A stretch of DNA of 64,000 bases from a bacterium (GTDB lineage: Bacteria > Patescibacteriota > Microgenomatia > UBA1406 > GWC2-37-13). Below, piece after piece: positions 5,810 to 36,200 of this stretch. The stretch covers positions 434,001-498,000 of the forward strand of contig JAKBEU010000001.1 of NCBI GenBank assembly GCA_021833625.1, given 5' to 3'. How positions within the stretch are numbered: position 1 is the first letter of the stretch; the number at the start of each line of letters is the position of its first letter. The position numbers and the translations under genes are program-made. The notes below the pieces were generated by a model. That model ran no database searches, had not been told where the DNA came from, and was given only the letters and a program-made list of their open reading frames with translations.

Positions 5810-6235
5810 TTAGGCTTCAACGTCAACGCCCATTGAACGGGCTGCTCCTGCAACAACTTTTTTTGCCGCTTCGATGTCATTTGCATTCATGTCGGGCATT
5901 TTTTCTTTTGCAATTGTCTCAAGCTGTGCTTTTGTCAGTTTTCCGACCTTTTCCGTGTTCGGTTTGCCTGAAGCCACCTGAAGTCCGAGAGTCTTTTTGA
6001 TCATCGCGGATACTGGAGGAAGCTTGGTAATAAAGGTGAATGTTCTGTCTTCAAATACCGTAATGACGGCGGGAATAACCTGTCCCTTTAATTTTGACGT
6101 TCGTGCATTATATTCTTTGATGAACTCCATGATGGGAACACCGTGTTGTCCGAGTGCCGGTCCCACTGGCGGTGCCGGAGTTGCTTCTCCTGCCGCAAGA
6201 TTTAATTTCAATATTGTTTTTACTTTTTTTGCCAT
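5810..6235 (-). CDS. rplK: Ribosomal protein uL11
   Basis: At 141 residues this is the normal length. It opens with [20 protein letters not shown] and contains [14 protein letters not shown] and the C-terminal RNA-binding [10 protein letters not shown]. uL11 binds the GTPase-associated centre of 23S rRNA. It lies 18 bp after nusG in the conserved order secE-nusG-rplK-rplA. Confidence 0.97.
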
Positions 6236-6253
6236 ACGTTTAGAAAATGATTA

Positions 6254-6841
6254 TTATAACTTTGCAAGTTGAAGGAAGTCGAGTTCGACAGGCGTTTCAC
6301 GATCAAAAATTGAAACAAGAACGCGCACCTTTCCTTTTTCTTCATCAACCGCTTCAATTGTTCCCAAGAAATCCGAAAACGGTCCCTCGGTAATCTTGAC
6401 CGCTTCTCCGACGGAGAACTTTGATTTGAACTTTGGTTGCTCTTGTTGGACGAATTTCATTATCGCTTGCACCTCTTTTTCAGAAATAGGAGTGGGCTTT
6501 AAACCGGCTCCAACGAAGCCAGTTACTCCTTCTGTGGTGCGGACAACCAACCATGAATCATCGTTCAGGATCATACGGATCAATATATATCCTGGAAATA
6601 CCTTTTCAATTGCTTTTGCTTTCTTTCCTTTTTTTATGACAATAACATCGCGCATCGGGATGACGATATCAAAAATCTTGTCTTCTACCCCAAGACTTTT
6701 AATACGCTGTTCGAGCGCTTGTTTTACTTTATTTTCGTATCCTGTTTGGATATGAATGACATACCATTTCGCATCATTACCGACTGCAACGGCTGTCTTT
6801 AACGCTTCTTTTTGTTCTGCACTAACCTGCGAGGCATCCAT
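6254..6841 (-). CDS. nusG: Transcription antitermination/elongation factor NusG
   Basis: The 195-residue protein has an NGN domain (WYVIHIQTGYENKVKQALE, then FPGYILIRM and TTEGVTGFVG) and a C-terminal KOW domain with VKITEGPFSDFLGTIEAVD. NusG binds RNA polymerase to raise processivity and links it to the ribosome or Rho; rho itself is present at 47712-49085. About 20 extra residues precede the NGN core. It sits between secE and rplK. Confidence 0.96.
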   Translation of the reverse strand: MDASQVSAEQKEALKTAVAVGNDAKWYVIHIQTGYENKVKQALEQRIKSLGVEDKIFDIVIPMRDVIVIKKGKKAKAIEKVFPGYILIRMILNDDSWLVVRTTEGVTGFVGAGLKPTPISEKEVQAIMKFVQQEQPKFKSKFSVGEAVKITEGPFSDFLGTIEAVDEEKGKVRVLVSIFDRETPVELDFLQLAKL

Positions 6842-15390: not shown

Positions 15391-16341
15391 ATGAGAAGGG
15401 TGTTATTGATGGTTGCTGTCACTGCTTTCCTATGCAACCCGGGGAACGTCTTTGGAGCTGTTATTACTCCCGTTGATGAGCCGGTTACCGTTTCTGTGGG
15501 AGTGGGAAATGAGTCGGAATATCATCCTCCTGCGACGGGGGACAAACAATTCCAACTGTTCGGACTCACCTCTCCTGGCGCAAGGGTAGTGATTGAGAAT
15601 CCCGGTATACGCAGTGAAACATTCGCAGATGCTGCCGGAAATTTTCGCTTCAAATATCTGTTTCTGTCCCAATTTAAGGAAGATATTTGCCTTGTGGCAT
15701 ATGACACAAGTAACAGATCTACTCCTCCCCTTTGCGTACCGCCCCCCGGCACGGACTCGCTTGACCAAATCGGTCCTGTGCTTCTCCCCCCGTCAACTTC
15801 CATTAGCGCAGGAGATGCATATATCGGTGACTCGGTTACCTTAAGCGGTCAAACTCTTCCGAGTGTTGACGTAAAATTATCATTGTTTACTGACGAACTG
15901 CAGCAGGGGAAAAAGCTCTCTCTTATCCCTGCCGCCTATGCGTATTCAATACCCACTGTGGACCTGAAATCGGACGGAAAAGGCAACTATTCCATTACTC
16001 TCCCGACTGCCGGTTCTCAGTTTCTCCGTATGTTTAGTCGTGCTTTTTATGGAGGGAACTCCACCCCAAAAGGCCTGACCCTCGCTCTTAATATTTTCCC
16101 CATTTGGATGCTGCTTGTCAAATTTTTTTCGACATTCCTCAGCACACTGCGCGCACATATTGTTGACATAATCATTCTTTTGCAGCTCTATATTCTCCTC
16201 ATGTATGGATTACAACGATTTCTTAAACCACACTTTTTGGCAAGTCAAAGGAGAGCTCTTGCACTTCGTAGTGTGGAGTTGCTTTCGCTCCCCCATGATC
16301 TTATGAGGGCACCACATAATCTTCCCGTCAGTATGGAATGA
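15391..16341 (+). CDS. Ig-fold surface protein with C-terminal membrane segments
   Basis: 316 residues: signal peptide (to about residue 23), a first Ig-like domain with GLTSPGARVVIENPGIRSETFADAAGNFRF style strands, a second with ISAGDAYIGDSVTLSGQTLPSVDVKL, then hydrophobic segments about residues 230-275 and a basic tail. Two other small surface genes precede it in the same orientation, and it is likely the last gene of the second cassette. A wall or glycan-contacting role is plausible but unproven. Confidence 0.65.
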   Translation: MRRVLLMVAVTAFLCNPGNVFGAVITPVDEPVTVSVGVGNESEYHPPATGDKQFQLFGLTSPGARVVIENPGIRSETFADAAGNFRFKYLFLSQFKEDICLVAYDTSNRSTPPLCVPPPGTDSLDQIGPVLLPPSTSISAGDAYIGDSVTLSGQTLPSVDVKLSLFTDELQQGKKLSLIPAAYAYSIPTVDLKSDGKGNYSITLPTAGSQFLRMFSRAFYGGNSTPKGLTLALNIFPIWMLLVKFFSTFLSTLRAHIVDIIILLQLYILLMYGLQRFLKPHFLASQRRALALRSVELLSLPHDLMRAPHNLPVSME

Positions 16342-16368: not shown

Positions 16369-16782
16369 TCAGTTGAATGAAAGATGTGCTTTCTGGGGAA
16401 GGGTTATTGAATCTACCCGTACTTCAAGATAGTAATCACCTGCAAGCGAAGAGGCATAATCAAAAACCGCCTTTCCGGTTTGATCGGTCGTGGGTTGCAC
16501 TTCAGTGGCAATAACGCCTGCATTATTTGTAAGCACCACTTTTTTTCCGTATACCCCTACTCCTTGGCTGTTGAGGACAAAAACAGTAATTCGCTCCTTC
16601 TGTTGACCATCGGCCTTTGCAACAAGAGGTGCTACAAATACATATGAATTATCAGCGGAAATATCAACCTGGTTCATACTTGCGCGGCTCCCAAAAAAAC
16701 GTGTTTCATAAAAAAAGAAGAATATGGAGAAGGTAATCAATATAAGAAAAAAAAGAATGGCAGAGAGTAAAAACTTTTGCAT
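16369..16782 (-). CDS. Membrane-anchored single Big-1-type Ig domain protein
   Basis: 137 residues: an N-terminal transmembrane anchor (residues 4-25) and one β-sandwich with VFVLNSQGVGVYGKKVVLTN and TDQTGKAVFDYASSLAGDYYLEV, the strand pattern of invasin-type Big-1 domains. It runs opposite to, and ends 27 bp from, the preceding operon. An extended -10 (TGT-TATACT) lies 8 nt before the start. Confidence 0.72.
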   Translation of the reverse strand: MQKFLLSAILFFLILITFSIFFFFYETRFFGSRASMNQVDISADNSYVFVAPLVAKADGQQKERITVFVLNSQGVGVYGKKVVLTNNAGVIATEVQPTTDQTGKAVFDYASSLAGDYYLEVRVDSITLPQKAHLSFN

Positions 16783-16796: not shown

Positions 16797-17159
16797 ACAA
16801 ATCACAATAATCAGGAATAGCTAATCATAAAATTCCCCCCTTTTCTTACGGCTCACTGCTACCCTCATTCTCATATTACTACTTTGGAGCTTATCATAGC
16901 CCCATATGTGATTAAATTTCGTATGTTTATGATTAGGTTTAAATATAATTAAACATATATTTAACAAAAAACCAGAAACAACCCTCTTCGATTTCTATTG
17001 TTTCATTTCTTATAGGTCTGTTGATATTAATTGATATATTTAGGTAAGCTAATATTTATTGCGGTAATTAAATTAAACTCATTTAAATTATGGTTATCTT
17101 CCTCGTTTCCCTCTATTTCGATGGGCAGATAACTATATCACAATGTATTAAAACTACTC
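16797..17159. other. AT-rich intergenic region before the fibre locus
   Basis: About 360 bp without a supported gene, with repeated runs of ATTAA/TTTAA and a small inverted repeat (GTTTAA, TTAAAC). It separates the minus-strand Big-1 gene from the giant surface-protein locus. No RNA gene is recognised. Confidence 0.5.
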
Positions 17160-17189
17160 TTGACATCGTTATTATAAATGTATTAGTCT
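17160..17189 (+). promoter_or_regulatory. Promoter A of the fibre locus (TTGACATC...TCTGA type)
   Basis: TTGACA at 17160-17165, 18-bp spacer, TAGTCT at 17184-17189, then 7 nt to ATG 17197. The surrounding words TTGACATC and AATGTATTAGTCTGA recur upstream of 29413 as TTGACATC and AATGCATTAATCTGA. Confidence 0.65.
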
Positions 17190-17196
17190 GATAGAT

Positions 17197-17658
17197 ATGG
17201 GAGAAAGGTATAATTTTTTTCAAATTGAAGCTGAATTTAAAAAATATCTCTCTGCGGAGAATGTTTCCGGCGCTACTTTAAAAAATTATTGCAGTGATCT
17301 GCGTTACTTTTTTTCCTGGCTTAAATTTACGTATGGAGTAGAAGAATTGTCCTTATCGGACATGCCAAGCTACATAAACACCTCTTCCCTCAGCAGCTTT
17401 GCCGCTTATATTGGCGATAGTTTGCAGGCAGATAAATCTGCCAAACGGCGCTTCTCAACAATGAGAAAGTTCTGTTCGTTTTGTATTGCACAAAAATGGA
17501 TTTCAACAAACCCTGCTAAGTTATTTGACGACTCAAAAGAGGAAAGTGAAAAAAAAGGATTAATCGCTGCCTATCTCCATTCACAAAAGATAGTAAACAC
17601 TTCATTTGATTTGGATTATTGTAACAACGTATTATCGGAATTCCTTACCGACAAATAA
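17197..17658 (+). CDS. Stand-alone tyrosine-recombinase core-binding (SAM-like) domain protein
   Basis: 153 residues, all helical. FKKYLSAENVSGATLKNYCSDLRYFFSWL and then KSAKRRFSTMRKFCSFCIAQKWI followed by STNPAKLF match the N-terminal SAM-like DNA-binding domain of XerC/XerD-type recombinases. The catalytic domain with its R-H-R-H-Y set is absent, and the frame ends cleanly after about 35 further residues. It may bind DNA or have been reused for protein contact. It is the first gene of a unit reading toward the giant surface protein, whose cytoplasmic N-terminus has a similar helical look. The -10 box 7 nt upstream supports this start. Confidence 0.75.
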   Translation: MGERYNFFQIEAEFKKYLSAENVSGATLKNYCSDLRYFFSWLKFTYGVEELSLSDMPSYINTSSLSSFAAYIGDSLQADKSAKRRFSTMRKFCSFCIAQKWISTNPAKLFDDSKEESEKKGLIAAYLHSQKIVNTSFDLDYCNNVLSEFLTDK

Positions 17659-17691
17659 GGAGAAAAAATTATTATTTATTATATAGGTCTT

Positions 17692-17868
17692 ATGAAAACA
17701 GTTACAAACACCTCAAATAGATTTGCAGAAGGGGCTTTACAGCGCCTTAAAATATGGTTTGACCCCGCTATGGAAGGATCTCCCTATGAGAACGAATCTT
17801 CCAACAGAGAGCTTTTTCAACCCCACAAATCCGTTCTTTTGCGAAAAAAAGTGATGTTAAAGTTTTGA
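17692..17868 (+). CDS. Small 58-residue protein in the fibre locus
   Basis: An intact 58-codon frame (ATG 17692, TGA 17866-17868). The product is MKTVTNTSNRF... with a central KIWFDPAMEGSPYENES and a basic end (LLRKKVMLKF). A TATATA box ends 6 nt before the ATG. It lies 33 bp after the core-binding-domain gene. No family is recognised. It may be a small cytosolic partner or a spurious frame; the leaderless-type -10 and the placement favour a real gene. Confidence 0.45.
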   Translation: MKTVTNTSNRFAEGALQRLKIWFDPAMEGSPYENESSNRELFQPHKSVLLRKKVMLKF

Positions 17869-17881
17869 TTTTATTAAGAAT

Positions 17882-17954
17882 GAAACAAGTTTTTCGATTC
17901 CATACAGGCGATTTGGCAAGCAAAAGCTATCACTGCCATAATCAAACTTGTTTC
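17882..17954 (+). promoter_or_regulatory. Nested stem-loop in the leader of the giant surface-protein gene
   Basis: A perfect 11-bp outer stem (GAAACAAGTTT 17882-17892 with AAACTTGTTTC 17944-17954) encloses TGGCA/TGCCA (17914-17918, 17934-17938) and an AGC-AAAA-GCT hairpin (17919-17928). It ends 32 bp before ATG 17987. It resembles no riboswitch class recognised here. It could be an mRNA leader structure, a processing site or a protein-binding palindrome. Confidence 0.5.
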
Positions 17955-17986
17955 TCTATACAGCGTTTTAAAGCTCTTGACCCACA

Positions 17987-20900
17987 ATGAAATATATTAC
18001 CAACAATACCATTACCGCCTACCTCGCCAAACTGAGTGCGAAAAAGTATGGCCATGCTGAGTTGGTAAAAAAAGTACTGACTGTTACTTCATTCATTGAA
18101 TGGTTGTCAAAAGAAAATAAGGTGTCAAAAGAAGATGCAAAGCGATTTTCAGAGCAATTACTGAAAATAACCCATACATACCCTGTCACAAAGCCACCAT
18201 TAAACAATTTATCATCTAAGGCAAAACTTCCACTCCGCTATGTCGGATATATCCTCATTGCGCTTACCGTCAGCATTTTGGGCGCCGGCATCTATAATCG
18301 TTTTTTTCTTAAAGTAAAGACACCCCTCGCCTACTCTACAACTCCTATTCAGGCAGGACGCACCATTTCGTTTCAGGGACGCCTCACCGATTCGCTCGGC
18401 AATCCCATTACTGCGCCCATCGATATCACGTATAACTTCTATACGACTTCAACCGGTGGATCTCCTATAACAGGTTCAACACGTATATGCACGGCAAATG
18501 GAGATGTTGATGGGGTATTTTCTTCACTTATCGGGAACGACGTAGGTCCGAGCTGTAATACCGAGCTTCCTGCCTCAATTTTCACCGAAAATCCTACCGT
18601 ATACCTTGGAGTCAAGGTCGGATCAGAGCTGAGTGAGATGTCTCCACGACAACAAATTGCGAACGTAGGATACGCAATTAACTCTGAGACACTTCAGGGC
18701 ATGCCCCCAGGCCAGTCAACCTCATCAGTTCCCTTTATCAATAAGGATGGAGATTTGCTAGTTGCCGTATCTAATCCCGGCATACGTTCAACATTTGCAA
18801 GCGCCAACTTTACCATATCAAGTGCACAGGCAACCACCATCCAGTCTGCTGGAAGCGGAGATATTACCCTGTCGGCAACTCAAGGCGGGGCTTTGCGATT
18901 CAATACGTACTATGGAACGCTCGGAGAACGGATGACCATTCTTGCCAATGGAAACGTCGGAATCGGCAACATTACTCCTTCAATGGCACTCGATATTGTG
19001 GGGAGTGCAACGACATCTGGTAATTTAAGCTCAGGAGGACAAGTAAAGCTCGGAGAACTCACGGCCGCACCGACGAGCCTTGGTGCAGGCTCACTTTACT
19101 ACAATAGTACGACCGCAAAGGTCTACTACAACAATGGAACCGTGTGGACTGAAGTCGGGGCAGGAGCCGCAGGAAGCGACCTCTTTCAACGGACTCTCGG
19201 CAGCCTTGCTCCAATGAATATAACGGACGCAATTAATACGGGAGCAATCGCAACAGGAAGCGCTCTCGTCCACCTTCCGGGAACAATCAATCAAGATGCA
19301 TGGTTTAACTTAGGAACAGGAAATGTGGGGGTGGGAACCAACAACCCTACATCAAAATTACAAGTTGTCGGAGGAGACATTCTGGTTGATAGTAGTAAAG
19401 GCATCTCATCTGTCGGTCAAGATTTAATTTTCCGAGCAAACACTTCAACCCAAGTATTGAGATTGCTCAGTAATTGGACTTCTGCTTGGTCAGATGATCA
19501 GGGCACAGATTTCTTCCAGTTTGGCCAAAACAATGGCATGTTTAGTGGATTTAACGGTGCAACGTTAAACAGGTTTGCCATAGTTTCCAATGGTACAAAA
19601 ATCACCAACGAAAATCCGTCAACAGCCACTCCCCCAATAGGAATGCTTGATGTAGAAGGATCGGGTGGTGTAATTTTAAATGCCGGAAATGTCGGAATCG
19701 GAAACATAGCTCCGGGAGCAAAACTTGATGTCACCGGAAATCTCAACGTCAGTACGTATGCAACTATGGGAGCCTCCCTAGCCCTTGGAACATCTACTGC
19801 CACTCCGGGAACAGGAAACCTTGATATGTCAGGAAATCTCACTGTTGCCGGAGCGATAAAGCCGGGAGGTAACGCAGGAACAAACGGGTATGTCCTCACC
19901 TCATCCGGAGGGAGTGTCAACACGTGGATTGATCCTGCGGTTCTTGTTGCAACAAACGGATATTGGCAACGAACCCTCGGCAGCCTCGCCCCAATGAATA
20001 TTACGGACGATTTAAATATGGGTGCAATCGCAACAGGAAGCGCAATTGTTCATCTCCCCGGACTCACTGACCAAAATGCATGGTTTAACTTAGGTCTTGG
20101 CAATCTTGGAATCGGAACCATAAGTCCTGATGCAAAGCTCGCCATTGTCGGAGACGGACAAGGGGCTGTATTCAAACTTTCACAGGGCTATGTCGATCTT
20201 CCGATTGCAACAAAACTCTCTTCTACTGTGATGAGTGATCTTCTTCTTCATCTTCCACTTCAGAACTCCCTTGCCTCATCAAGAAGTAATTATCCCACCT
20301 TCACCAGATCAGATACCTCAAACGGAAATACGTCGACTTATACAACGGATGCGGGTTGGATAACAAATGCATATGTATACACAAATGTCGCCCGATTTGA
20401 AAAGACCAATATCAGTCACGGAGTATTTGTCGAAAACTCCCGCCGCAATCTCATGGACTACTCTTCGTTTGAAGAGGGCTCAACAACGGGCTGGACAGCA
20501 TCAGGACTTGAGACAAATACCGTTTCATCCATCTACCGCAAACACGGGACATATTCGGCAACCGTTGGAGATACAAACGGCACCGGAGGAACTTTTGTCC
20601 GCAGCCGCACCCTCACCAGTGGCCAAACCTATCCTTTCTTCTGTTACGTACAAAACACCACGGCAGGAGCACTACGGGGAACTGTCGATACTTCCGTTGC
20701 CCAACTGTATGCAGGGGCAAGCACAATAACCACCTCTTACACTCCTCTTGATGGCGGCTGGTACAAACTTGAAGGAGTTGTTACGGGAACAGGCGGTGCT
20801 GTCGGATATGGAGTAAATATAGGAATAAACAAACAAATTCAACTTGATGCCTGCCAAATCGAAGCCGATGCGTCCAGCAACGGCGTCCCCTATTCCACAA

Positions 20901-23900
20901 GCTTTGTATACAACAACTGGGGAACAAACTATATCCGAGGAGAAGAAACCTTAAGCTATCTCGCCTGGAACGGTACAGAAAACTACAATTTTGTCGACAG
21001 TCTTATCAAGGCTGACAAGGGCACCCTTTCGTTTTGGTTCCGTCCTGAGTGGCGGGCCTCTGCTCCGACTTCCGATCTTTATCTTTTCCAGGTTCCCAAT
21101 GTAATCCAGGTCTTTTATCAGGCATCTGACGACAAGATATACGCTCAAATGTACAACGGAACAAACTGGACAACTGTCTCAGTAGCGTCAGCCGCCCAAA
21201 CATTTGCGGCGCTTTCGGATCATTATATTTCGGTACGTTGGGATAACACATCCGGACTCATACTTAATCTTGACGGAACTGAGACATCCCTTCCCACCAC
21301 ATGGACTTCACAGGAACAGCAGATTACCAGCACTACAAACCTTTATATCGGTTCCAAGTCAACCGCAGCAAATCGTGCGGACGGACTTATTTCAGACTTA
21401 GCTATATTTAACAGAAGCTTGCAAAAATATGAAGTAGCGCAAATATATAATAACAAAGCCCCAATTGAAGATTTTGCCCGGAATGACTTGGTGCAGTTGC
21501 AACAGGCAAACAACCAGACATATCAGCGCGGATATATCCGCCTTACGGGAGATGTGACTGCGGGAGGAGCGGTAAGCGCGGGAACCGTTTCAACCACCTA
21601 TTTGTCTGGTAATTATGTCGGCACAAATAACGCGGCAAATTTCTCAAATCATACGGTTCTTCATCTTCCGTTCCAGGGAACAATCGACGGCAGCCGCCAG
21701 GAGGTAGGAACCTTTACCCGTCCCGATTCCGTCAGCCCAGCCGCAACGGTCACGAATGAAAACACCCATCAACTCACGAATAAAAATGCAAATGAACCGC
21801 GACTTGGAAGGGGATTATATGCAAGCGATGCAAATCAGGACTACCAATACAATACGGGCAATTTTGGAGTCACTATTGAAGACTCACGTAAAAATCTTGC
21901 TCTTGACTCCTCATTCGAAACTCTTACCCCATGGGTCAGCGGTGCGAGTTTGACTGCGACACAAACAACGATGAAGGCGATTCATGGAACATATGGAGTC
22001 AATCTTGTCGCAACAGCGAATACGCGCTATTTCCAGACGCTCGACCTCACAACCATTACTGCAGGCACCACTGTTCAACTGTCAACCTATGTATATCGAA
22101 ACGATACAAACTCATGGGGCGGCACTATAGATACATCAGTTGCTCAATTATATGCACGAACCGATGACGCTATCACCGCACTTACCCCCACTTATATCCC
22201 ACTTGGAAACGGGTGGTATCAAATGATTGCAAGCTTTACTTCAACAGCAGCCTCAAACTGGGATGTGGGAGTCTATATTCCCTCCGGAAAAAATATCATT
22301 GTCGATGGATTCCAGGCTGAAGTAGAGGGAGACGGTACCTCCGCATATTACCCATCTTCCTATATCCCCACCACAACATCTTCAGTCATCCGTGCTCCAG
22401 AAAAACTGTCCTATCCACTTCCCACCTCTTTTAAGTCTGATAAGGGTGGTTTTTCATTCTGGTTTAAACCGATGTGGGCAAGAAATACAACCGGAGACAA
22501 CACAAACAAATACTTCATCTATATCCCCAATGTTATGCGCGTAAGTCTTGACGGGACAAACGACAGATTCCTCGTCGAACAGTATAACGGTGCTTCATGG
22601 GTGGCAACAGCAAATACAGGAACCGGTACCGTAAACCAGTATCAATGGAATCATCTTGCCTGCGGATGGTATTACAACTTGAACTATTGTCGCCTTAACG
22701 GATCCGCATATTCATCAAGCGCTGTATGGACTCCTCAACCGACGGCAGGTAAAATATTATATGTCGGATCTGATGATACGGGCGCAAATCAGGCAAACTC
22801 TCTCATAGCGGGCTTCACCCTTTTTGACGTTTATTTGAACCCAACTCAACAATATCAACTCTATCTTAACCGCGGAAAATTTGACGATTATTTCCGCACC
22901 GACACTATCAGCCTGTCCGACATAACTTCAACCGCCAGTCAAAGCGGAAGCTTAAACATTACCGGTGTCTATCGAGGAGGAATGGGAAGTCAAACAGCTC
23001 CTGCCTTCAGTTTTGGCGTTGACACCAATACGGGACTCTTTTCATCAACCCCTGACACTTTAAATTTTACAACCGGAGGAACTGAGGCTTTGAGAATCGA
23101 TTCGACCGGCAACATCGGTATTGGCAACACAGCACCTGGTGCCAAGCTTGACATTGGAAAAGCAGGATCTACTCTTGGCACCCTCCGCCTTGAGGGAGAT
23201 ACTTCAGGATATACACAGATACAACCTGCCACCAATGCAGGAAACTGGACGCTTACTCTCCCTCCAAATGCCGGGACAAGCGGATATATATTAACAACGG
23301 ACGGGAGCGGAACAACTTCCTGGTCTGCTTCGGTTCCCGCCTCCTCCGTTCCCTTCTCGGGTATCACCTCAGGAACAAATACCACCGCTGCAATGGTGGT
23401 CGGAACTGGTGCATCGCTTACCTATTCGGGAACGGGAACTATCAATGCATCAAGTTTAATTGGAGGAACATGGGCAGTGCCTGGCGCGATCGGAGGAACA
23501 ACGGCAAATACCGGAGCTTTCACAACACTCTCCTCCACCTCCGGAACAAATCTCGCAACTTCAACAGGAAATGTAGGAATAGGGACAGCTTCACCATCAC
23601 AAAAACTACAGGTCGCCGGAACTGCATTAATCGAAAACCTTAACCTTGGAACAACTCCCGTAGCAGGGGCGAGACTAACATCTTATGGGCAAGTAAATAT
23701 TATTGGTGATACGTCTTTAGTTTGGAATAATGCACATATTTATTTGAACGATGTAAATACCGGTGAGAATTACGCATTTGGAAACAGAGGTAATTATTTC
23801 TCATTTTCTTCCGAAACCGCTCCACATAATGCAATTCGAATGGTCATCGTTGCAGCAACCGGAAACGTCGGTATCGGAACTGTCGCTCCCGCAGCTAAAC

Positions 23901-26900
23901 TGGATATTTTAGGTGATCTTAACGTCAGTACCTACGCAACCGTAGGGGCTTCGCTTGCACTTGGCACATCTACCGCTACTCCGGGAGCAGGAAACTTAAA
24001 TATGAGTGGGAATCTCAATCTTTCCGGTGCGTTTATGCCGGGCGGAAATGCCGGAACCGCTGGATATTTCCTCACCTCCTCCGGTGCAGGTACTGCGCCT
24101 AGCTGGACCACAACCGTTGGAGCCTCAAGCGTTCCCTTCTCCGGCATTACCTCAGGAACAAATACCACCGCTGCGATGGTGGTGGGAGCTGGCGGATCAC
24201 TGAACTACACTTCAACGGGAACAATTAATGCATCAAGTTTAATTGGCGGCACATGGGCGGCACCTGGCGCAATCGGAGGAACAACGGCAAACACAGGTAA
24301 ATTCACAACTCTTGAAGCAACAAGCACAGGAAATGCACTTACCCTCTCTGGAGCGGGAGCAAATATTGCATTCTCCGGAGCAGGACTTGCACAGATAACA
24401 ACGGCAACCAATCAACACCTTGCACTCATGCCCGCAGGAACGGGAAATGTGGGGATTGGGACAACAAGTCCTAACGGAAAACTGCAAGTTGCAGCCGATT
24501 TAAATTCTGCTATCAGAATAAGTAATGCGGCAGGTACCGGGAACATTCTTAATATTTCGGGAAATAATACGGTTGATACGACTTCACCAAGCATACGAAG
24601 TGACGGCGCCAGTCTTGTTCTTAATGGAGCTACTGGAGGAAACCTATACTTCAATCTCGATGCCAGCGCAAATAGTATTTTTTCAAATAATGTGGGGATT
24701 GGGGTAACCCCAACAGCTAAGCTTGACGTTTTAGGAAATCTTAACGTCAGTACATACGCAACCGCAGGAGCCTCGTTAGCCTTAGGAACTTCTTCTGCCT
24801 CGGCAGGTGCAGGAAATCTTGACATGTCAGGAGACTTGACTCTTTCCGGTGCCTTCAAACCGGCAGGAAATGCGGGAACAGCGGGATATTTCCTGACCTC
24901 TGCCGGCACAGGGAGTGCGCCCACCTGGACATCGACAGTCGGGGCATCAAGTGTTCCTTTCTCCGGAATCACCGGTCCATCTACTAATACGACAGCTGCA
25001 ATGACTGTTGGGTCAGGAGCTTCACTTAATTACACAGGAACGGGAACAATAAACGCATCAACATTAATCGGTGGAACATGGGCAGTGCCTGGCGCAATCG
25101 GGACGACAACACCAAACACCGGTAAGTTTACTTCGATTTGGGGAACATCTTTTGGAGTCGGATATGATCCGTCTACCATTACAGGAGGAGTTGCTGCGTT
25201 TAACGGAAATGTCGGCATTGGAACAATAAGTCCTGCTGCAAAACTTGATATTCTCGGCAACCTCAATGTCAGTTCATACGCAACAGTTGCCGCTTCCCTT
25301 GCACTTGGCACATCAAATGCTGCGGCAGGAGCGGGAAATCTTGATATGTCAGGAAACCTTACCATTGCAGGGGCGATAAAACCGGGAGGTAATGCGGGAA
25401 CAAGCGGCTACATCCTCACTTCAGGAGGTGGAGGAGTAAATACGTGGACCGATCCGTTGGCGCTTACCGGAGGATCAAACCTCTGGCAAAGAACACTTAG
25501 TAGCCTTGCTCCAATAAATATAACGGACGCACTCAATTTGGGATCAACTGCAACAGCAAGCGCTCTCGTTCATCTCCCGGGGACAAATAATCAGAATGCA
25601 TGGTTTAACTTGGGTACGGGAAATTTGGGAGTAGGAACGGCGACTCCATCAGCGCTATTAAGTATTGGGTCAATAAATATTACCTCAAATCCCCAAATTG
25701 CCATCGGCACCAATCTAGCTGAAAGCAATTATGCAATTTCCGTTTCGGGAGGACGAACAATGTTTGGGTACGACCAAGTGGACGGAGCATCCGTCATTAA
25801 CAGCGGAGGATCAAAAGGATTTAAGCTTATGGTAAATGGAACCGATAATTCATGGCTTTCGGGAACACAAGCGCTCACAGTTTTAAGCAATGGAAACGTC
25901 GGAATCGGTGTCACCAACCCGACAAGCAAACTTGAAATAGCGGGAACATCCTCCACAATCAGTAATGCAAGCGGAGATATCACATTTAGCGCAGCATCAG
26001 GGAATATAGCTTTTTCAAACAATAATCTGACAAATATCACGAACATAAGCACATTAGGACAAATTCAGATTGGTCAGTTTGCTTCCGCCCCGGTCGCGCT
26101 TGGCGCCGGATCTCTCTATTACAACTCAACGGGAGGAAAAGTATATTATAACAACGGAACCGCATGGGTAGAGATAGGAGCTTCTTTCTGGCAACAGACG
26201 CTCGGCAGCCTTGCACCCACAAATGTTACGAACGATATAAATACCGGAAGTACCGCAACAGCAAGTGCTCTTGTCCACCTCCCGGGGACAACCAATCACA
26301 ACGCATGGCTCAATCTTGGCACGGGGAATGTCGGCATTGGGACCGCTACTCCGACAGGTGCAAAATTGCAGGTCAATGGAAGTATTATGGCTGATGAACT
26401 TATTGACACGACGGGCGCCGGAGCATATTATGTTGACCCTGCCGGAAGCTCTTCACTTGGAGGAAACGTCATCATTGCAAGCACCTATGGTGTAGATACA
26501 ACAGCCGCAGGAACACTCTATTTGGGAAACACCAATTCCTCAATAATCGGAATTGGTACCAGTGCAACGGCCCGGACAATCACAATGGGAAATTCAACGG
26601 GTGCAACAGCGCTCTCACTTAACTCCGGAACAGGAGGTATCGCCCTTAACTCAACCGACGTCATAAATCTTACTTCGTCAAAAGCCGCAGGGGCAGGTAT
26701 CACGGAAGCATTCTCCCTGAAGACCAGTACTGATCTGGGAGCGACAGACGAACTGTTCCAATTAGGCGATTCTTTAGCCAACATGATAACGGTGTTGGGA
26801 AATGGATATGTCGGAATCGGAACCAGCACCCCGGGAGTACAACTGCAGGTACATGAGCCCGGAACCGGCAACAGTCAGCTAACCGTTTCAACCGATTCTG

Positions 26901-29368
26901 ATACCAATAATTCTATTCTCGCTTTCACGACTGATGCAAATGGAGTGGCCCCAAAAGATGCCCGCATCGGACTTGACGCCGCAAACGGCGTTCTCAAAAT
27001 AGTATACGGAAGTCCGTTTGCCGCCTCAACCAACGGACTTGTCATCAACTCTTCCGGCAATATCGGCATCGGAACAGTGAGTCCTCTGGATCAGGTAGAA
27101 ATTGCAAATACCACAGCAGGAGGAAGAATGATAATAAGCAATGGCGCCGGAGCAACACGCAAAGCGCTTTTGTTCCAGGCTCCGGGCGGAACATACAGCT
27201 ATGCACGAATAGTTGCCCAAGATTATGGAACATCAACGGGACTGAACCTGGCCCTTCAGGATACGGGAGGAAATGTCGGTATCGGCACAACAACCCCAAC
27301 AGCTGCAAAATTGCAGGTGGTGGGAACCGTTATGGCCGATCAGTTCACCGATACAACAGGGTCAGGCGCCTATTATGTGAACCCAGCAGGAACCTCGGTT
27401 CTCGGAGGCAATATTGAAATGCGCTCCGCAACCCCATCAATACTCGGATACGACAGCTCAACGGCAACATATTACACACTTCATTTTAAAGGAAACAGCG
27501 GCGATACGACCGCTTCCATTTCCGTAGATGGAGCAACCTCAGGAAGTGGAAAGATTGATGTTGGTACGGTGGACCCTCCTTATACAATTGATGGAAAAAA
27601 ATATGCAACCTATCAGCCTTCTATGACGGGAGTGAAGGAGGAAACGACAGGAGTTGTCCGCCTTACTCAGAAAAACAGTCAATTACAGGCGTATATATAT
27701 ACTATTAACTTCAATAATCAAACGGAAGGATCCGACCTGTGGCTTTTCAACAAAACCGCAAATTTGAAACAGAATATAAAAGATATGACTGTTCTGCTTT
27801 CTTCCGCATCAAACGGAAAGACGTGGTACAGTGTCGATAAAGATAATCAGCAATTAACATTCTTCTCTTCTTCCCCGACGGAAATTTCTTATCGTCTCAC
27901 TGCTCCACGGTTTGATTCTTCTACTTGGAAAAACGAAAGAGATGCAAGTGACCCCAGTATTGGATTTGTCATCAACAGCGATGGAACCGTCAACACGACA
28001 TCTTCAACTCAAGTCGCCTACACTGCTCCACAGCTTACAAAGGATGCAAACAACACCTTTGTACTCGTTGGTGATTTCATTGATGAGTTCATAAATGTTA
28101 ATAAAGCACTTATTGCAAATATCAAGTCGGGATTTATCCAAGCAGAAGATGTTGTTATCAACAACACACTTACTGCACGCGAAACGATATCTTCTTCCCT
28201 CACTGCATCTGTCGCACGAATCGAAACCCTTATCATTTCAAAGAAGATAAATGCTCCGGTCGTTGAAACTGTAGACCTTAAGGCTTCCGGAAGCTCTGAA
28301 CTTTCCTCTATCTCGACGAATACGGTGAAACCTATTGGGAATGATGTAACTGTTGACCTCTCAAAAAATTCTTCTCCTTCCGGATCACTTGCCCGTCTTG
28401 TCATTAATGGACTTGATAATGCACCGGTTGCCCAGTTTGATGCTGCGGGTAATGCGACTCTTGCAGGCACTCTTGTTGCGGATCAGGTTGTTGCTTCCTC
28501 CTCCGCTTTCGGTTCCTCATCAATTGCGCAATTGAAAACAGACAACGCATCCGTTTCAGGAACCCTTATTGCTAAAGAAGTACAGGCAGACAATATCAAC
28601 AACTCCCTACAGCAGTTCAGTTCCTCCATAAATAACGTTCAACAACAGCTTGCCGCATTACAAAACGCACCCCTTCCCAATGCTCAGCACTACCAGAAAC
28701 TGGATGATTCAATCATCGGAAATATAACCATTACCGACACGGCAAATATATATAAAGCGACGATTTCTGACTCACTTATGGTGGGGTCTGTTCTTGTCGA
28801 ACAAAATTCTCTCCTTGCACTCTCTACCGATTTGAAAATATCATCCCTTTCTACCATTCACCTGTTTGATGACGCGGTGGTTATTGCAAAAAACGGAACA
28901 GTCGCAATAAAAGGGGAAGTATCTGCTTCTTCCCTTGCTATTAAGAATGTCGAAGGGGCAACAGTCGCATCAATTGATGCCTCCGGTTCGGCACATTTTA
29001 ACGAGGTAGTTGCAAAAAAATTCACGCTCGACAAAATAGCAACGAACGGAGCGGTTATTGCTGATTCCGGAATGAGAAATGCACAGAACGAGCCCATTCC
29101 CGCCATCAAAACAAATACGGAAGTTGCCGGAACCGGCTCGGTTCCACAGGATGCAAAAGAAGTTATTATTTATAACGACAATGTAACTGAAAATTCACTT
29201 ATTTATCTCACACCTACCGCAGACAATGTTCAAAATCAACTTTCTGTGACAAAAAAGACAACATGCGCCGCAAATACGACACAAACTACCTGTACCCCTT
29301 ACTTTGTTATCTCGTCAAATAGCGCCATTCACCCTGAAGTTCCGTTTAACTGGCTTATCATTAATTGA
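17987..29368 (+). CDS. Giant membrane-tethered fibre protein (3,793 aa) with NVGIG repeats and LamG-like domains
   Basis: Residues 1-75 are helical and cytoplasmic, with a look of a recombinase core-binding domain (YLAKLSAKKYGHAE, then TSFIEWLSKENKVSKEDA). A single transmembrane helix follows (about 83-103). The exterior starts with a FQGRLTDSLGNPI domain. Sixteen copies of a motif G-N-[VIL]-G-[IV]-G-x(2,3)-P-x-x-K-L-x-[IV]-x-G run from about residue 323 to 3110. Two LamG-like regions, each with an upstream carbohydrate-binding-like part, lie at about 745-1162 and 1223-1635. The C-terminal 600 residues are β-repetitive with a short coiled coil (NNSLQQFSSSINNVQQQLAALQ) near 3540. The NVGIG repeats resemble phage tail-fibre shafts. 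No sortase signal, C-terminal membrane helix or S74 chaperone motif is seen. Probably a surface adhesin or fibre. Confidence 0.9.
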   Translation: MKYITNNTITAYLAKLSAKKYGHAELVKKVLTVTSFIEWLSKENKVSKEDAKRFSEQLLKITHTYPVTKPPLNNLSSKAKLPLRYVGYILIALTVSILGAGIYNRFFLKVKTPLAYSTTPIQAGRTISFQGRLTDSLGNPITAPIDITYNFYTTSTGGSPITGSTRICTANGDVDGVFSSLIGNDVGPSCNTELPASIFTENPTVYLGVKVGSELSEMSPRQQIANVGYAINSETLQGMPPGQSTSSVPFINKDGDLLVAVSNPGIRSTFASANFTISSAQATTIQSAGSGDITLSATQGGALRFNTYYGTLGERMTILANGNVGIGNITPSMALDIVGSATTSGNLSSGGQVKLGELTAAPTSLGAGSLYYNSTTAKVYYNNGTVWTEVGAGAAGSDLFQRTLGSLAPMNITDAINTGAIATGSALVHLPGTINQDAWFNLGTGNVGVGTNNPTSKLQVVGGDILVDSSKGISSVGQDLIFRANTSTQVLRLLSNWTSAWSDDQGTDFFQFGQNNGMFSGFNGATLNRFAIVSNGTKITNENPSTATPPIGMLDVEGSGGVILNAGNVGIGNIAPGAKLDVTGNLNVSTYATMGASLALGTSTATPGTGNLDMSGNLTVAGAIKPGGNAGTNGYVLTSSGGSVNTWIDPAVLVATNGYWQRTLGSLAPMNITDDLNMGAIATGSAIVHLPGLTDQNAWFNLGLGNLGIGTISPDAKLAIVGDGQGAVFKLSQGYVDLPIATKLSSTVMSDLLLHLPLQNSLASSRSNYPTFTRSDTSNGNTSTYTTDAGWITNAYVYTNVARFEKTNISHGVFVENSRRNLMDYSSFEEGSTTGWTASGLETNTVSSIYRKHGTYSATVGDTNGTGGTFVRSRTLTSGQTYPFFCYVQNTTAGALRGTVDTSVAQLYAGASTITTSYTPLDGGWYKLEGVVTGTGGAVGYGVNIGINKQIQLDACQIEADASSNGVPYSTSFVYNNWGTNYIRGEETLSYLAWNGTENYNFVDSLIKADKGTLSFWFRPEWRASAPTSDLYLFQVPNVIQVFYQASDDKIYAQMYNGTNWTTVSVASAAQTFAALSDHYISVRWDNTSGLILNLDGTETSLPTTWTSQEQQITSTTNLYIGSKSTAANRADGLISDLAIFNRSLQKYEVAQIYNNKAPIEDFARNDLVQLQQANNQTYQRGYIRLTGDVTAGGAVSAGTVSTTYLSGNYVGTNNAANFSNHTVLHLPFQGTIDGSRQEVGTFTRPDSVSPAATVTNENTHQLTNKNANEPRLGRGLYASDANQDYQYNTGNFGVTIEDSRKNLALDSSFETLTPWVSGASLTATQTTMKAIHGTYGVNLVATANTRYFQTLDLTTITAGTTVQLSTYVYRNDTNSWGGTIDTSVAQLYARTDDAITALTPTYIPLGNGWYQMIASFTSTAASNWDVGVYIPSGKNIIVDGFQAEVEGDGTSAYYPSSYIPTTTSSVIRAPEKLSYPLPTSFKSDKGGFSFWFKPMWARNTTGDNTNKYFIYIPNVMRVSLDGTNDRFLVEQYNGASWVATANTGTGTVNQYQWNHLACGWYYNLNYCRLNGSAYSSSAVWTPQPTAGKILYVGSDDTGANQANSLIAGFTLFDVYLNPTQQYQLYLNRGKFDDYFRTDTISLSDITSTASQSGSLNITGVYRGGMGSQTAPAFSFGVDTNTGLFSSTPDTLNFTTGGTEALRIDSTGNIGIGNTAPGAKLDIGKAGSTLGTLRLEGDTSGYTQIQPATNAGNWTLTLPPNAGTSGYILTTDGSGTTSWSASVPASSVPFSGITSGTNTTAAMVVGTGASLTYSGTGTINASSLIGGTWAVPGAIGGTTANTGAFTTLSSTSGTNLATSTGNVGIGTASPSQKLQVAGTALIENLNLGTTPVAGARLTSYGQVNIIGDTSLVWNNAHIYLNDVNTGENYAFGNRGNYFSFSSETAPHNAIRMVIVAATGNVGIGTVAPAAKLDILGDLNVSTYATVGASLALGTSTATPGAGNLNMSGNLNLSGAFMPGGNAGTAGYFLTSSGAGTAPSWTTTVGASSVPFSGITSGTNTTAAMVVGAGGSLNYTSTGTINASSLIGGTWAAPGAIGGTTANTGKFTTLEATSTGNALTLSGAGANIAFSGAGLAQITTATNQHLALMPAGTGNVGIGTTSPNGKLQVAADLNSAIRISNAAGTGNILNISGNNTVDTTSPSIRSDGASLVLNGATGGNLYFNLDASANSIFSNNVGIGVTPTAKLDVLGNLNVSTYATAGASLALGTSSASAGAGNLDMSGDLTLSGAFKPAGNAGTAGYFLTSAGTGSAPTWTSTVGASSVPFSGITGPSTNTTAAMTVGSGASLNYTGTGTINASTLIGGTWAVPGAIGTTTPNTGKFTSIWGTSFGVGYDPSTITGGVAAFNGNVGIGTISPAAKLDILGNLNVSSYATVAASLALGTSNAAAGAGNLDMSGNLTIAGAIKPGGNAGTSGYILTSGGGGVNTWTDPLALTGGSNLWQRTLSSLAPINITDALNLGSTATASALVHLPGTNNQNAWFNLGTGNLGVGTATPSALLSIGSINITSNPQIAIGTNLAESNYAISVSGGRTMFGYDQVDGASVINSGGSKGFKLMVNGTDNSWLSGTQALTVLSNGNVGIGVTNPTSKLEIAGTSSTISNASGDITFSAASGNIAFSNNNLTNITNISTLGQIQIGQFASAPVALGAGSLYYNSTGGKVYYNNGTAWVEIGASFWQQTLGSLAPTNVTNDINTGSTATASALVHLPGTTNHNAWLNLGTGNVGIGTATPTGAKLQVNGSIMADELIDTTGAGAYYVDPAGSSSLGGNVIIASTYGVDTTAAGTLYLGNTNSSIIGIGTSATARTITMGNSTGATALSLNSGTGGIALNSTDVINLTSSKAAGAGITEAFSLKTSTDLGATDELFQLGDSLANMITVLGNGYVGIGTSTPGVQLQVHEPGTGNSQLTVSTDSDTNNSILAFTTDANGVAPKDARIGLDAANGVLKIVYGSPFAASTNGLVINSSGNIGIGTVSPLDQVEIANTTAGGRMIISNGAGATRKALLFQAPGGTYSYARIVAQDYGTSTGLNLALQDTGGNVGIGTTTPTAAKLQVVGTVMADQFTDTTGSGAYYVNPAGTSVLGGNIEMRSATPSILGYDSSTATYYTLHFKGNSGDTTASISVDGATSGSGKIDVGTVDPPYTIDGKKYATYQPSMTGVKEETTGVVRLTQKNSQLQAYIYTINFNNQTEGSDLWLFNKTANLKQNIKDMTVLLSSASNGKTWYSVDKDNQQLTFFSSSPTEISYRLTAPRFDSSTWKNERDASDPSIGFVINSDGTVNTTSSTQVAYTAPQLTKDANNTFVLVGDFIDEFINVNKALIANIKSGFIQAEDVVINNTLTARETISSSLTASVARIETLIISKKINAPVVETVDLKASGSSELSSISTNTVKPIGNDVTVDLSKNSSPSGSLARLVINGLDNAPVAQFDAAGNATLAGTLVADQVVASSSAFGSSSIAQLKTDNASVSGTLIAKEVQADNINNSLQQFSSSINNVQQQLAALQNAPLPNAQHYQKLDDSIIGNITITDTANIYKATISDSLMVGSVLVEQNSLLALSTDLKISSLSTIHLFDDAVVIAKNGTVAIKGEVSASSLAIKNVEGATVASIDASGSAHFNEVVAKKFTLDKIATNGAVIADSGMRNAQNEPIPAIKTNTEVAGTGSVPQDAKEVIIYNDNVTENSLIYLTPTADNVQNQLSVTKKTTCAANTTQTTCTPYFVISSNSAIHPEVPFNWLIIN
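18952..27325 (+). repeat. Protein-level repeat array inside the giant fibre gene
   Basis: Besides the 16 NVGIG motifs, three longer modules recur. Q (QRTLGSLAPMNIT... LVHLPG... AWFNLGTGN) occurs four times, starting near 19184, 19966, 25483 and 26188. R (NLNVSTYAT... SLALGTS... GNLDMSGNL) occurs four times, near 19740, 23910, 24740 and 25257. S (VPFSGIT... TNTTAAM... TINAS.LIGGTWA.PGAIG) occurs three times, near 23350, 24130 and 24955. DNA of the copies differs at many synonymous sites, so the duplications are old and the protein sequence is kept. Confidence 0.8.
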
Positions 29369-32515: not shown

Positions 32516-33217
32516 ATGGCAGGAAAGAAACGAAGAGGGGTAACACTTGTCGAGATACTTATCGTCGTTATTCTTCTGGTTATTCTGGCAATCGGAGCAC
32601 TCATTCTTCTTAATCCGGGAAAGCAGATAGCAAAAGCAACCGATATACGGAAAAAAACCGATTTGGAGGTGTTCAAAAAGGCACTGGAGGATTTTTATAA
32701 CGACAAAGGATGTTATCCCACCCTTTCACAGGTGTGTTATACCGGAGGAAATCAGATTGCCAATTTTACCAGCGGAGTCAAGTGTTATATCTGTGGAGAC
32801 GTTTCCACCTCCCCCAGCCTTTCGCCCTATATGCAAAAACTTATCTGCGATCCGGACTATCCTCATAAACACTATATGTATGCGGTCGACAACCCACAAA
32901 ATACCATCAATCCTTCTTGTCCAAAAACGTATAAAGTATATTCCGATCTTGATCAGTCCGGCGACCCCGACAGTATTACACTTGGATGTGGAGATGGAGG
33001 GTGCGGATTTGCTCCCGATTATGGATATGATTATGGTGTGTCAAGTCCCGACACCGACCTGAAAACCACGCCGTTTTTTTTCTGTCTAACCCGGTCTGAT
33101 ACATGCGACAACTGTAACACATTTGTGGAATGCAGAACAGAGCCTTCCTGCACGACAATTTATGCAACGCAAGATCTTTGCTGCAAAATCCTTCCTAAGC
33201 CAAAAGGATGCTTCTAA
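32516..33217 (+). CDS. Type IV pilin/pseudopilin-like protein, cysteine-rich
   Basis: 233 residues with a class III prepilin signal KKRRG/VTLVEILIVVILL: cleavage after Gly8, Glu at mature position 5, and Val instead of Phe or Met at position 1. A hydrophobic helix to about residue 31 is followed by KQIAKATDIRKKTDLEVFKKALEDFY and a globular part with 18 or so cysteines, many paired (CYIC, CDNCNTFVEC, CC), so a disulfide-rich head is likely. It would need a prepilin peptidase encoded elsewhere. It lies 82 bp before the second giant gene and may assemble with it or with a DNA-uptake pilus. Confidence 0.82.
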   Translation: MAGKKRRGVTLVEILIVVILLVILAIGALILLNPGKQIAKATDIRKKTDLEVFKKALEDFYNDKGCYPTLSQVCYTGGNQIANFTSGVKCYICGDVSTSPSLSPYMQKLICDPDYPHKHYMYAVDNPQNTINPSCPKTYKVYSDLDQSGDPDSITLGCGDGGCGFAPDYGYDYGVSSPDTDLKTTPFFFCLTRSDTCDNCNTFVECRTEPSCTTIYATQDLCCKILPKPKGCF

Positions 33218-33299
33218 AAACGCCTATTCCCTACCCCAAACCCCCTCAGTATTTGTTACACTTAAAATAGGTTTGTTTATTTCACTATTTTTGTGCCAG

Positions 33300-36200
33300 A
33301 TGAGAACTGTTTTGCATTATAAAAAAAGGCGGCAAGTACACAAAAAAAAATCTTTTTTTGGTATCCCTTTTTTTGTATATTTGGCAGTGGGAGTCATCCT
33401 CATTCTTGGCTTTATTTTTATCCGTCCCCAAAAAAACAAACTTGCGTTTCACCGACAACTGTTCGGGCCTTGGCAATACACCGGAGAAATACCGGGAGTC
33501 ATGAAAACCTCCCTTGGCAACGACAAAAATCAAGTGATGGTGAAAGTTGAACGCGGTGACTCTTCGCTGCAGTTTAACGTCCCTCTTTCAAATACGAGTG
33601 AAACGAATAAAAATCAAACCATCATATTTTCAGAAAAGACAAAGACAATTGATACTTCCTACAAACTAACAAATGAAGGAATTAAAGAAGAAATCACGCT
33701 CTATAAAATCCCTCAGGAGAATGTCTTTAAAAATACAATTACGACTAATAATCTCATCGCAAAAATCAGTTCGGAAGGTGTTCCTGTTTTTTTTGATACA
33801 AAAGGAGTGTACCAATTTCATTTTTCACGTCCGTTTGTGAGAGATGCGGCAGGAAATATTAGTTATGCGGTCTCTTATACCATCGGACAGACGCCCGATC
33901 CGTTTCATAACACAAACGGAAAAGAGTCAACAAAACAGCTCCTTTCGGCAACAAAAGAAGTGTCTCAGGACCAGAACTATACCATTTCCGTCACGGTTGA
34001 CTCTGCCTGGCTCCATGATCCAAAGCGCAAACTCCCCATTGTCATAGACCCGACGGTCGTGCATGATACCAGTAGTGAGTTTGCAAGCGGAAACCTGAAT
34101 AGAGTGTCCGATACCGGCTCAGAGACATCTCCAAAGCTTGAAGGCTACTACCAAGAGCTCTCTTCGGATGTCAATACTGTTGCCCTGTGGCATATGAATG
34201 AAGGGAGCGGAGATATTCAAGATTCATCCGGAAATGCAAATGTCGGAAGTCCAACCGGTACGACAGTTGTTACAGGACCTCTTGGAAACGCAAGAGGGTT
34301 TAATGGAACTAGTAGCGACTACATTACTGTCAACCCCACCGCAGTTACATCGGGCAGCTATACGGTTGAATTGTGGGTACAGCCAAATTCCTACACAGGA
34401 GGAGTAAGTGGTAATCCTGAAATAATAAGCACTCGAACTGGTTCAGATTTTAGTTTTGACATGCAGCTCACCTCATCTTCAATTCATCAGGACATTGGAA
34501 ATGGAAGCAGTTGGATCACTACCTCGGCAGACGTAAGTACGATAATTCCTCTCAATTCCTGGTCACACATCGCTACGGTAGTCACCAACATAGGATGGGC
34601 AACCTACGTAAATGGAACTCTTGCAGGAAGCGGAAAATATTATTCGAGCTCTTTTCCACTACTGTCTGATTCAACGCATAAAATCATGTTTGGAACGGTT
34701 AACGGCACAACGAACTTTTTGAACGGTTCTATTGACGAAGTCCGGATCAGCAACGTTGCCCGCTCGTCTGAAGAAATCCAAATGGATGCCTCCCGGCGTC
34801 CTTACTCTACCTACACCTCTCCTGTTATTGATCTTGTAAAACCGGTTGTCTCATGGAACAATTTTTCCTGGACAAGTCTCGGCGAAGGCACGGGAAACGG
34901 CGAAGTTGCAACTTCATCGGCAACCGCAAACATGGTCACTCAATGGAATTTTAATGAAACGTCCGGAACAACAGCAGTATCCGGCGGTACCTGTGGCACT
35001 ACATGCAATGGAACCCTCACAGGCTTTGCAAGTACGGGATCTCAAGACAGCGCCGTTGGTACGGGGTGGACCGCTGCAAACCGTAGGTGGGGTGCCGGAG
35101 CCCTTATGTTTGATGGGGCAGGCGAATATGTAAGCGCTCCTGACAATGCAAGTCTCAGTCTTCCTGGAGATATTACTGTAACCTCATGGATATTTATGCC
35201 GGCAGCACAAATATCAGGCGCCGCCATAGTAACCAAAGGCAACGGCGGGGGCGGTGAATCGTGGAATATGGATGTGGTCAGCGGAAACAGCATTCGATTT
35301 ATGAGAAGATACAACAGCGGTGCTGCATTTACCAGCGCAACAGCTCCAAACGTCAGCTATGGTCAATGGCATTACGTTGCAGGAGTTACTACCAGTGGAC
35401 AGACGGATATTTATATCGACGGAAAGAAGACGGCCGGAAATACTACCGCTACCCCGTTTGACGTAAACACACATGTTGTTTCTATAGGTTCTCGACAGTC
35501 GGGAAGTACAACGTATGACATGAATTTTAACGGCGTCATAGATTCTACGGCCGTTTTTTCACGCGCGCTTACTGCATCCGAAATTTTAAGTAACTACAAT
35601 GCTTCCAAAATTGAATTCCAAACCCGAGTCGGTACAAGTGCTAATCCAAATGACGGCACCTGGGAAGCGTGGAAACCTTCCGCAACAGAACAGGTGATCG
35701 ATTCTATGGACACTTCCTCGGATAAGTGGGCTATCGACAATAGTCAGAATTATCCATCGGCACTGGCAAAAACAGGAATTGTTAATGTGGGAACCGGAGG
35801 AGACGGAGCCTGTACTGTTTCGTCTGGAACAACAAACCTCAATACGGGAAGCTGTAGCGGACGGGGAACGGCAGATGCAGTCAATTTTTCCTCTACCGTG
35901 CTTACTTCAATCGGAACAACCTCAATTACACTTTCTACGTCCCCCACGGGACTGACTGCGGGAGACGAGGTCCTCATTATTAATCTGCAAGGAACCATGG
36001 CCGACTACGATAATGTCGGGCAATACGAGACACATACCATTTCCTCCATCAGTACAAACACGTTGAACTTTACTGATAGTCCCATACAAAACACGTTTGA
36101 TGGGACGACACAAAAAATAATGGTACAAAGAATACCGAATTACACGAACGTAACTGTTTCTGCCGGGGCAATCCTCACGGCTTCTGCGTGGAATAGTGCA

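Follow-up and report, generated by a model that had tools for sequence, protein, structure and literature searches.

Layout of the locus

We interrogated a surface-fibre locus in a window of 64,000 nucleotides (the whole stretch of DNA analysed) from a 1.1 Mb genome whose relatives are named Candidatus Roizmanbacteria or Microgenomates. Its features, in window coordinates, are as follows.

17010..17051, +: element E3, tTATAgG..TTGATATt.aTTGATATATttAGGTAAgcTaA, recognised by eye in the upstream regions of ~20 family members
17060..17093, +: element E2, TGCGGTAATT...TTAAA....TTTAAAT, preceding CB genes across most of the family
17132..17165, +: promoter element E1, deeply conserved, with a -35 box TTGACA at its end
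17197..17658, +: core-binding (CB) protein of 153 aa, comprising core-binding domain 1 and half of domain 2 without a catalytic domain (PF02899, XerC/XerD models)
17197..17520, +: core-binding domain 1 (CB1), aa 1-108, with conserved basic K29, R84, R85 and R90 (PF02899)
17207..17232, +: tandem GTATAAT element inside the coding start, encoding R-YN.; its second repeat is degenerate in the window
17545..17655, +: tail of the CB protein, the N-terminal half (helices 1-2) of a split CB2 (family tail profile, leave-one-out HMM)
17692..17868, +: mini-protein of 58 aa with the motif W.DPA.EG.PY and a basic C-terminus, conserved in ~16 split loci
17987..29368, +: giant fibre protein of 3793 aa with LamG/ConA-like domains, NVGIG repeats and phage-tail-fibre similarity
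17993..18136, +: C-terminal half (helices 3-4) of the split CB2, giant aa 3-50 (family profile, leave-one-out HMM)
18239..18307, +: single transmembrane helix, giant aa 85-107 (Kyte-Doolittle, the protein's sole strong segment)
18308..29365, +: predicted extracellular fibre region (PF13385; PHROG tail fibre 2.4e-6), placed outside by predicted topology

The 153-aa protein matches Phage_int_SAM_1 (PF02899) with an E-value of 6.9e-10 (39.5 bits against a cut-off of 22.3, residues 13-100) and the XerC/XerD models over their first third only. Since it covers just the first ~100 of 295 model positions (2-101 of XerC), the catalytic domain is absent; the pattern R..K..HxxR..H/W..Y was found neither in the 153-aa protein, using the XerC model, nor in the giant protein. 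These matches bear out a sequence-only reading of the locus, which had described the protein starting at 17197 as XerC/D-type and core-binding without a catalytic domain. An assignment of the small protein as a tyrosine recombinase was considered and ruled out, as the catalytic domain is missing.

The same reading had placed next a 58-aa ORF and a 3,793-aa protein with one membrane helix, and both stand: the ORF is conserved in ~16 genomes, and aa 85-107 form the only strong hydrophobic segment of the giant, the predicted orientation placing its start in the cytoplasm. The similarity of the giant to a PHROG tail fibre is weak (2.4e-6), and this and one weak viral match are the only phage links of the locus. 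We infer both the fibre function and the membrane topology of the giant from these features. An Rfam match to a CRISPR repeat at 17862-17898 was sub-threshold and judged to be chance.

Three neighbouring genes were recorded. A second giant ORF (33123-42587, +) of up to 3,154 aa has four LamG/ConA-like and two glycine-rich domains and an N-terminal membrane helix; no core-binding domain was found in it. On the minus strand, 16369-16782 encodes a divergent single-domain Big_1 membrane protein, which in the family is conserved beside CB-fibre loci of both kinds, split and one-gene. Beyond it upstream, 15391-16341 encodes a conserved secreted protein with an 'LFGYTSP' motif in relatives.

Division of the second core-binding domain between two proteins

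The giant's cytoplasmic start had been taken for a core-binding domain. The C-terminal half of such a domain does lie there (aa 3-50), but a whole second domain is ruled out, as family profiles and PF02899 match only this half; its N-terminal counterpart is supplied by the small protein's tail. A family profile of the tails matched the N-terminal half of CB1 with an E-value of 2.3e-11, against 1.2e-6 for the C-terminal half, and the profile of the giant starts matched the C-terminal half at 4.5e-13, against 8.4e-6 for the N-terminal half. The two profiles scored 52 and 58; when their columns were shuffled 100 times, the highest scores were 13.7 and 17.6. Tail and giant start joined together (25 pairs) matched CB1 over 99 columns with an E-value of 4.7e-18, and joining them in reversed order brought no gain (1.1e-9). 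The joined pair can also be aligned along its full length with the undivided CB2 of Collierbacteria (6.9e-14). When giant starts are aligned by themselves, they shift to the C-terminal half of CB1, and this shift in itself reveals the resemblance. With a tail profile restricted to the window's genus, the alignment to the wrong half is slightly the better one.

Among relatives, PF02899 positions 37-83 are matched in giant starts (up to 35.1 bits) and positions 2-34 in tails (up to 24.7 bits). Several of these half-matches, which come from 6 proteins, exceed the curated cut-off of 22.3, and their break agrees independently with the profile-based split. The window's own halves are divergent and were recognised via relatives rather than directly: leave-one-out HMMs identified the giant start at 7e-10 and the tail at 2e-6, each being the top and sole convincing match in the window. 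An HMM scan found the C-terminal half at the giant's start in 36 pairs, with the tail also detectable in 30 of them, and the break fell in the same loop between helices 2 and 3 in every pair. What was found is a core-binding domain of two polypeptides, with its N-terminal half in the small protein, its C-terminal half in the giant and a common break point. The family profiles and the PF02899 matches in relatives likewise uphold the earlier suggestion that a Xer core-binding domain has been reused on the inner end of a giant fibre.

In the 36 pairs, the gap between the two genes ranges from -68 to 1041 bases and all three relative frames occur (15/13/8), indicating that two polypeptides are made. 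Several genomes have the two genes in frame and 0-18 bases apart, as would suit a single protein, made through stop-codon readthrough or a frameshift, or a gene that broke only recently. This reading is hardly credible given the spread of gaps and frames, the other genes that separate the halves (mini-gene, transposase and fibre genes among them) and the persistence of the split across many families. A pseudogene or a misassembly was ruled out as well, as the pair is conserved over many genera.

Foreign-looking genes occur between the halves or after the small gene at five loci (L090, L062, L063, L072 and L079), assigned by eye as REP-type transposase, NYN-domain and four-helix-bundle proteins. 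At the Shapirobacteria locus L090, the gene separating the two halves (6148-6744) is transposase-like, of REP type by eye. The gap between the small and giant genes looks like an insertion hotspot.

For comparison, 49 loci came from a named genome collection; among these, L061-L096 are of Microgenomates type. Three architectures occur: (i) a small gene plus a giant gene, as in the window; (ii) CB1, CB2, membrane helix and fibre in one gene, for example in Collierbacteria (L092, L094-L096) and in families f18, f19, f23, f37 and f38; and (iii) CB1, membrane helix and fibre in one gene, for example L066, L068-L071, L075 and L085. Judged from these gene orders, the locus encodes the same chain of CB1, CB2, membrane helix and fibre that is one gene in other lineages, with CB2 divided here. 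Locus L150 encodes two whole CB domains and a degenerate third, which is apparently split likewise, and the Collierbacteria locus L093 has a CB1-CB2-fibre gene with an apparent frameshift between CB1 and CB2.

Because the same 58-aa mini-protein is found at the same place in ~16 genomes, we take its ORF to be a real gene. It has an invariant D-P, G and P, and lies between the halves in 16 clear cases, with two weak matches in genus g5. None was found in the type (iii) genomes of the sample, and its confinement to split loci makes it part of the split arrangement. Its N-terminus is possibly amphipathic.

Structure predictions are in agreement with the division of CB2. For the first fold, the small protein of L061, whose two genes share a frame, was connected to the giant start through an artificial read-through linker, and the alignment used for folding was without natural fusions. 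The pLDDT was ~95 for CB1 and both CB2 halves and <50 in most of the linker. The best PDB matches were the tyrosine recombinases lambda Int, Cre, IntI and XerA, together with isolated integrase CB domains; a fold similarity to core-binding domains, which the sequence-only reading had staked its proposal on, is thus present, and is weaker for a model of CB2 only. Many top structural matches of that CB2-only model are tyrosine-recombinase CB regions, but with Foldseek E-values >1. This model, an AlphaFold2 fold of the two halves alone with natural fusions again absent from the alignment, gave a pTM of 0.71, with pLDDT ~95 in the halves and 50-60 in the linker. The two-halves model is supportive of docking, and does not reach significance alone.

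By sequence, CB1 lies wholly in the small protein and CB2 is shared between the small-protein tail and the first ~50 residues of the giant. We propose that these tandem Xer-derived core-binding domains would form the cytoplasmic foot of the giant fibre. The small protein would dock on the giant's cytoplasmic start by completing CB2, and this docking, the best-supported step of the proposal, we consider very probable. An intracellular partner for the fibre had been suggested before, and the small protein fits that role: its tail completes the giant's half domain, making the pair physically interdependent rather than two look-alikes. Inside-out signalling, raised along with the partner role, gained no separate support.

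DNA-facing residues and the control region

Among 84 CB1 domains, near-fixed positions are 29 (K/R in 99%), 30 (N, 94%), 34 (D, 100%), 84 (R, 100%), 85 (R, 88%) and 90 (R, 92%). An alignment with Cre puts these residues on the pair of helices inserted into the major groove. In XerH, most base-specific contacts are made by the N-terminal domain (PMC5241119). Split CB2 domains outside the window's family keep the same DNA-facing residues, supplied by both polypeptides, whereas in the window's family they are lost from both halves and the fold-type pattern is kept. CB1 is therefore probably a DNA reader and the window's CB2 mainly a joint, apparently with no role beyond docking across the window's family. 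Judging by these residues, we regard DNA binding by CB1 as likely.

A long conserved region lies upstream of the small gene and of the type (iii) gene in the window's family. E1 occurs once in the window's genome, at this locus, and its family consensus has 15 matches in 57 genomes, 15/15 upstream of CB genes. The E2 pattern matched once in each of 13 of the 57 genomes and 0 times in the control, and all 13 matches precede a CB gene; the copy in the window shows up in the upstream comparison but diverges too far for the scan pattern. E3 (17010-17051) contains TTGATAT repeats and may be an inverted relative of E1. A motif common to E1 and E3 (TTTTGATATA) is weakly above shuffles (median 12/100) and is not claimed.

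Just downstream of the promoter lies the GTATAAT tandem repeat, with a 9-10-bp period. Within the window's family it falls inside the coding start and spells a 'conserved' YNLYNLEA; many other families carry it in the leader. Its PWM was matched in 0/200 shuffles, and a scan across 281 genomes of the class gave 28 matches against one in the control; 25 of the 28 lie at CB genes. In 49 loci of other families, GTATAAT pairs at 9-10 bp number 45 against 0.1 expected, and three repeats stand in a row in 16 loci. The YN.YN codons are TAT/AAT in 104/104 cases, compared with 348:185 elsewhere in these genes (Fisher 9e-18, a p-value that is optimistic for related sequences), indicating that the constraint acts on nucleotides. 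In several families (most of f9, Collierbacteria), CB-fibre genes come with no clear tandem element.

In the proposed mechanism, CB1 would bind DNA at the operon's own control region, at the tandem GTATAAT and/or E1-E3, and the complex, tethered to the membrane, would act as a regulator that adjusts transcription of the fibre to how much of it there is or to its state. We infer the link from CB1 to the cis elements from position, conservation and fold, circumstantial evidence that we rate as strong, and see an even chance that CB1 targets this conserved region and that the complex regulates its own transcription. The GTATAAT element might serve for CB binding, for sigma-dependent pausing or as a feature of the RNA. 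As an alternative to CB binding, the repeated TATAAT may be a -10-like pause signal, and E1-E3 may be bound by another regulator.

The foot might instead be mechanical, with the CB domains serving as a cytoplasmic plug and a docking or oligomerisation module that holds the fibre in the membrane while another regulator reads the cis elements. The retention of the fold-type pattern in a CB2 stripped of its DNA-facing residues would suit this, as would the single membrane helix under a 3,793-aa fibre and the one-gene variants in which the domain adjoins the helix. However, the DNA-facing basic residues of CB1, near-invariant in 84 divergent domains, are needless for a plug, and dedicated promoter elements require a dedicated reader; we find a mechanical foot rather unlikely.

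Tethering of the fibre to the chromosome had been the other possibility raised from the sequence. A CB foot that binds DNA non-specifically or at many sites, and so anchors the fibre to the nucleoid, would agree with the DNA-binding-type residues that are kept, and the cells of these bacteria are tiny, with nucleoid and membrane close together. The cis elements, however, are single-copy and at the fibre's own gene, which points to one site, and an unsystematic look showed no repeated chromosomal site. Given the dedicated cis elements of the operon, a tether has no advantage over own-gene regulation, and we consider it improbable.

The Xer kinship of the CB protein also brings to mind that the cell's XerC/XerD might be recruited here to rearrange fibre genes site-specifically. 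Full-length Xer-like recombinases are encoded in the genome, and the GTATAAT/TATAAT repeat may resemble the inner part (half) of dif arms. Nevertheless, the elements are direct repeats that occur in single copy at a promoter, there is no catalytic partner next to them, and a limited look showed no rearranged copies, leaving recruitment very improbable. As a whole, our best explanation is a two-protein fibre foot, docked by domain complementation, that would bind DNA and control its operon while held in the membrane; on this explanation we remain evenly divided.

Distribution and relation to known systems

Small-protein homologues are present in 36/57 genomes (the window's own and its relatives), and the giant's start lies just downstream of the small gene in most split members. 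Small gene and giant fibre gene occur together, as a pair or a fusion, throughout the family, order and class, in keeping with the co-occurrence that had been predicted. A class survey gave matches in 172/281 genomes at an E-value of 1e-4, many of the weaker ones probably being ordinary recombinases. In a phylum sample of 380 genomes at 1e-12, 16 genomes match, 16/16 in the window's class (Microgenomatia), and no match was found in other classes at this threshold. A CB1 tree built from few columns places split genes in 16 or more families of Microgenomatia with ~12 state changes, and does not give their direction.

The CB domains resemble Xer, Cre and lambda-Int tyrosine recombinases in domain family (PF02899, XerC/XerD models), fold and basic residues on DNA-facing helices, but here there is no catalytic domain, a membrane helix and giant fibre follow, and two proteins share the second domain. 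A precedent for such reuse is MrpR/YopR, the master repressor of the SPbeta prophage, which employs the tyrosine-recombinase fold as a DNA-binding regulator without recombinase activity (PMC10516654). In the fibre locus the catalytic domain is gone and DNA binding is predicted from residues; MrpR, in contrast, keeps a (dead) catalytic domain and has no membrane fibre, whereas here only CB domains are present, joined to a surface fibre.

ToxR/CadC-type one-component regulators combine a cytoplasmic DNA-binding domain, one membrane helix and an extracytoplasmic part. The proposed logic is alike. The giant has one hydrophobic helix, at aa 85-107, whose orientation is predicted; here, however, the DNA-binding fold is another one, the fibre runs to thousands of residues and the domain is completed by a second protein. 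A winged-helix domain, the ToxR/CadC feature, gave no match at the curated cut-off in the small CB protein. With giant surface proteins and tail-fibre-like adhesins, the giant shares LamG/ConA-like domains, repeats and tail-fibre similarity. Such described proteins are usually exported by signal peptides or wall-anchored and, to our knowledge, usually do not carry recombinase-derived cytoplasmic domains. The system had been put forward as undescribed, and no description of such fibres or of this architecture was found in the literature searched, most subscription journals and preprints lying outside the search.

Microgenomatia, tiny bacteria known from uncultured members, are thought to be host-attached, and how their contact structures are built and controlled is largely unknown. 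The locus offers a concrete, testable class-wide system, in which a surface fibre is joined to a DNA-binding-type domain and has its own cis elements, and a recombinase domain has probably been turned into a two-gene docking joint. A split PF02899 together with tandem GTATAAT provides a sequence tag for finding such fibres. If the proposal is true, a surface fibre reports on itself directly to its own gene through a joint made by recombinase-domain complementation. Its extension to fibres throughout Microgenomatia, each with a two-protein Xer-derived foot reading tandem GTATAAT at its own promoter and reporting directly to its own gene, is more tentative, and we give it somewhat less than even weight.

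Two further arrangements were observed. In family f14 (L152, L161 and L172), short proteins consist of CB1, a (partial) CB2 and a C-terminal membrane helix without a fibre, and are possible free-standing membrane-bound CB regulators. At L022, L025, L026 and L028, a PaaX-like regulator gene (assigned by eye) adjoins the one-gene CB-fibre locus divergently on the opposite strand.
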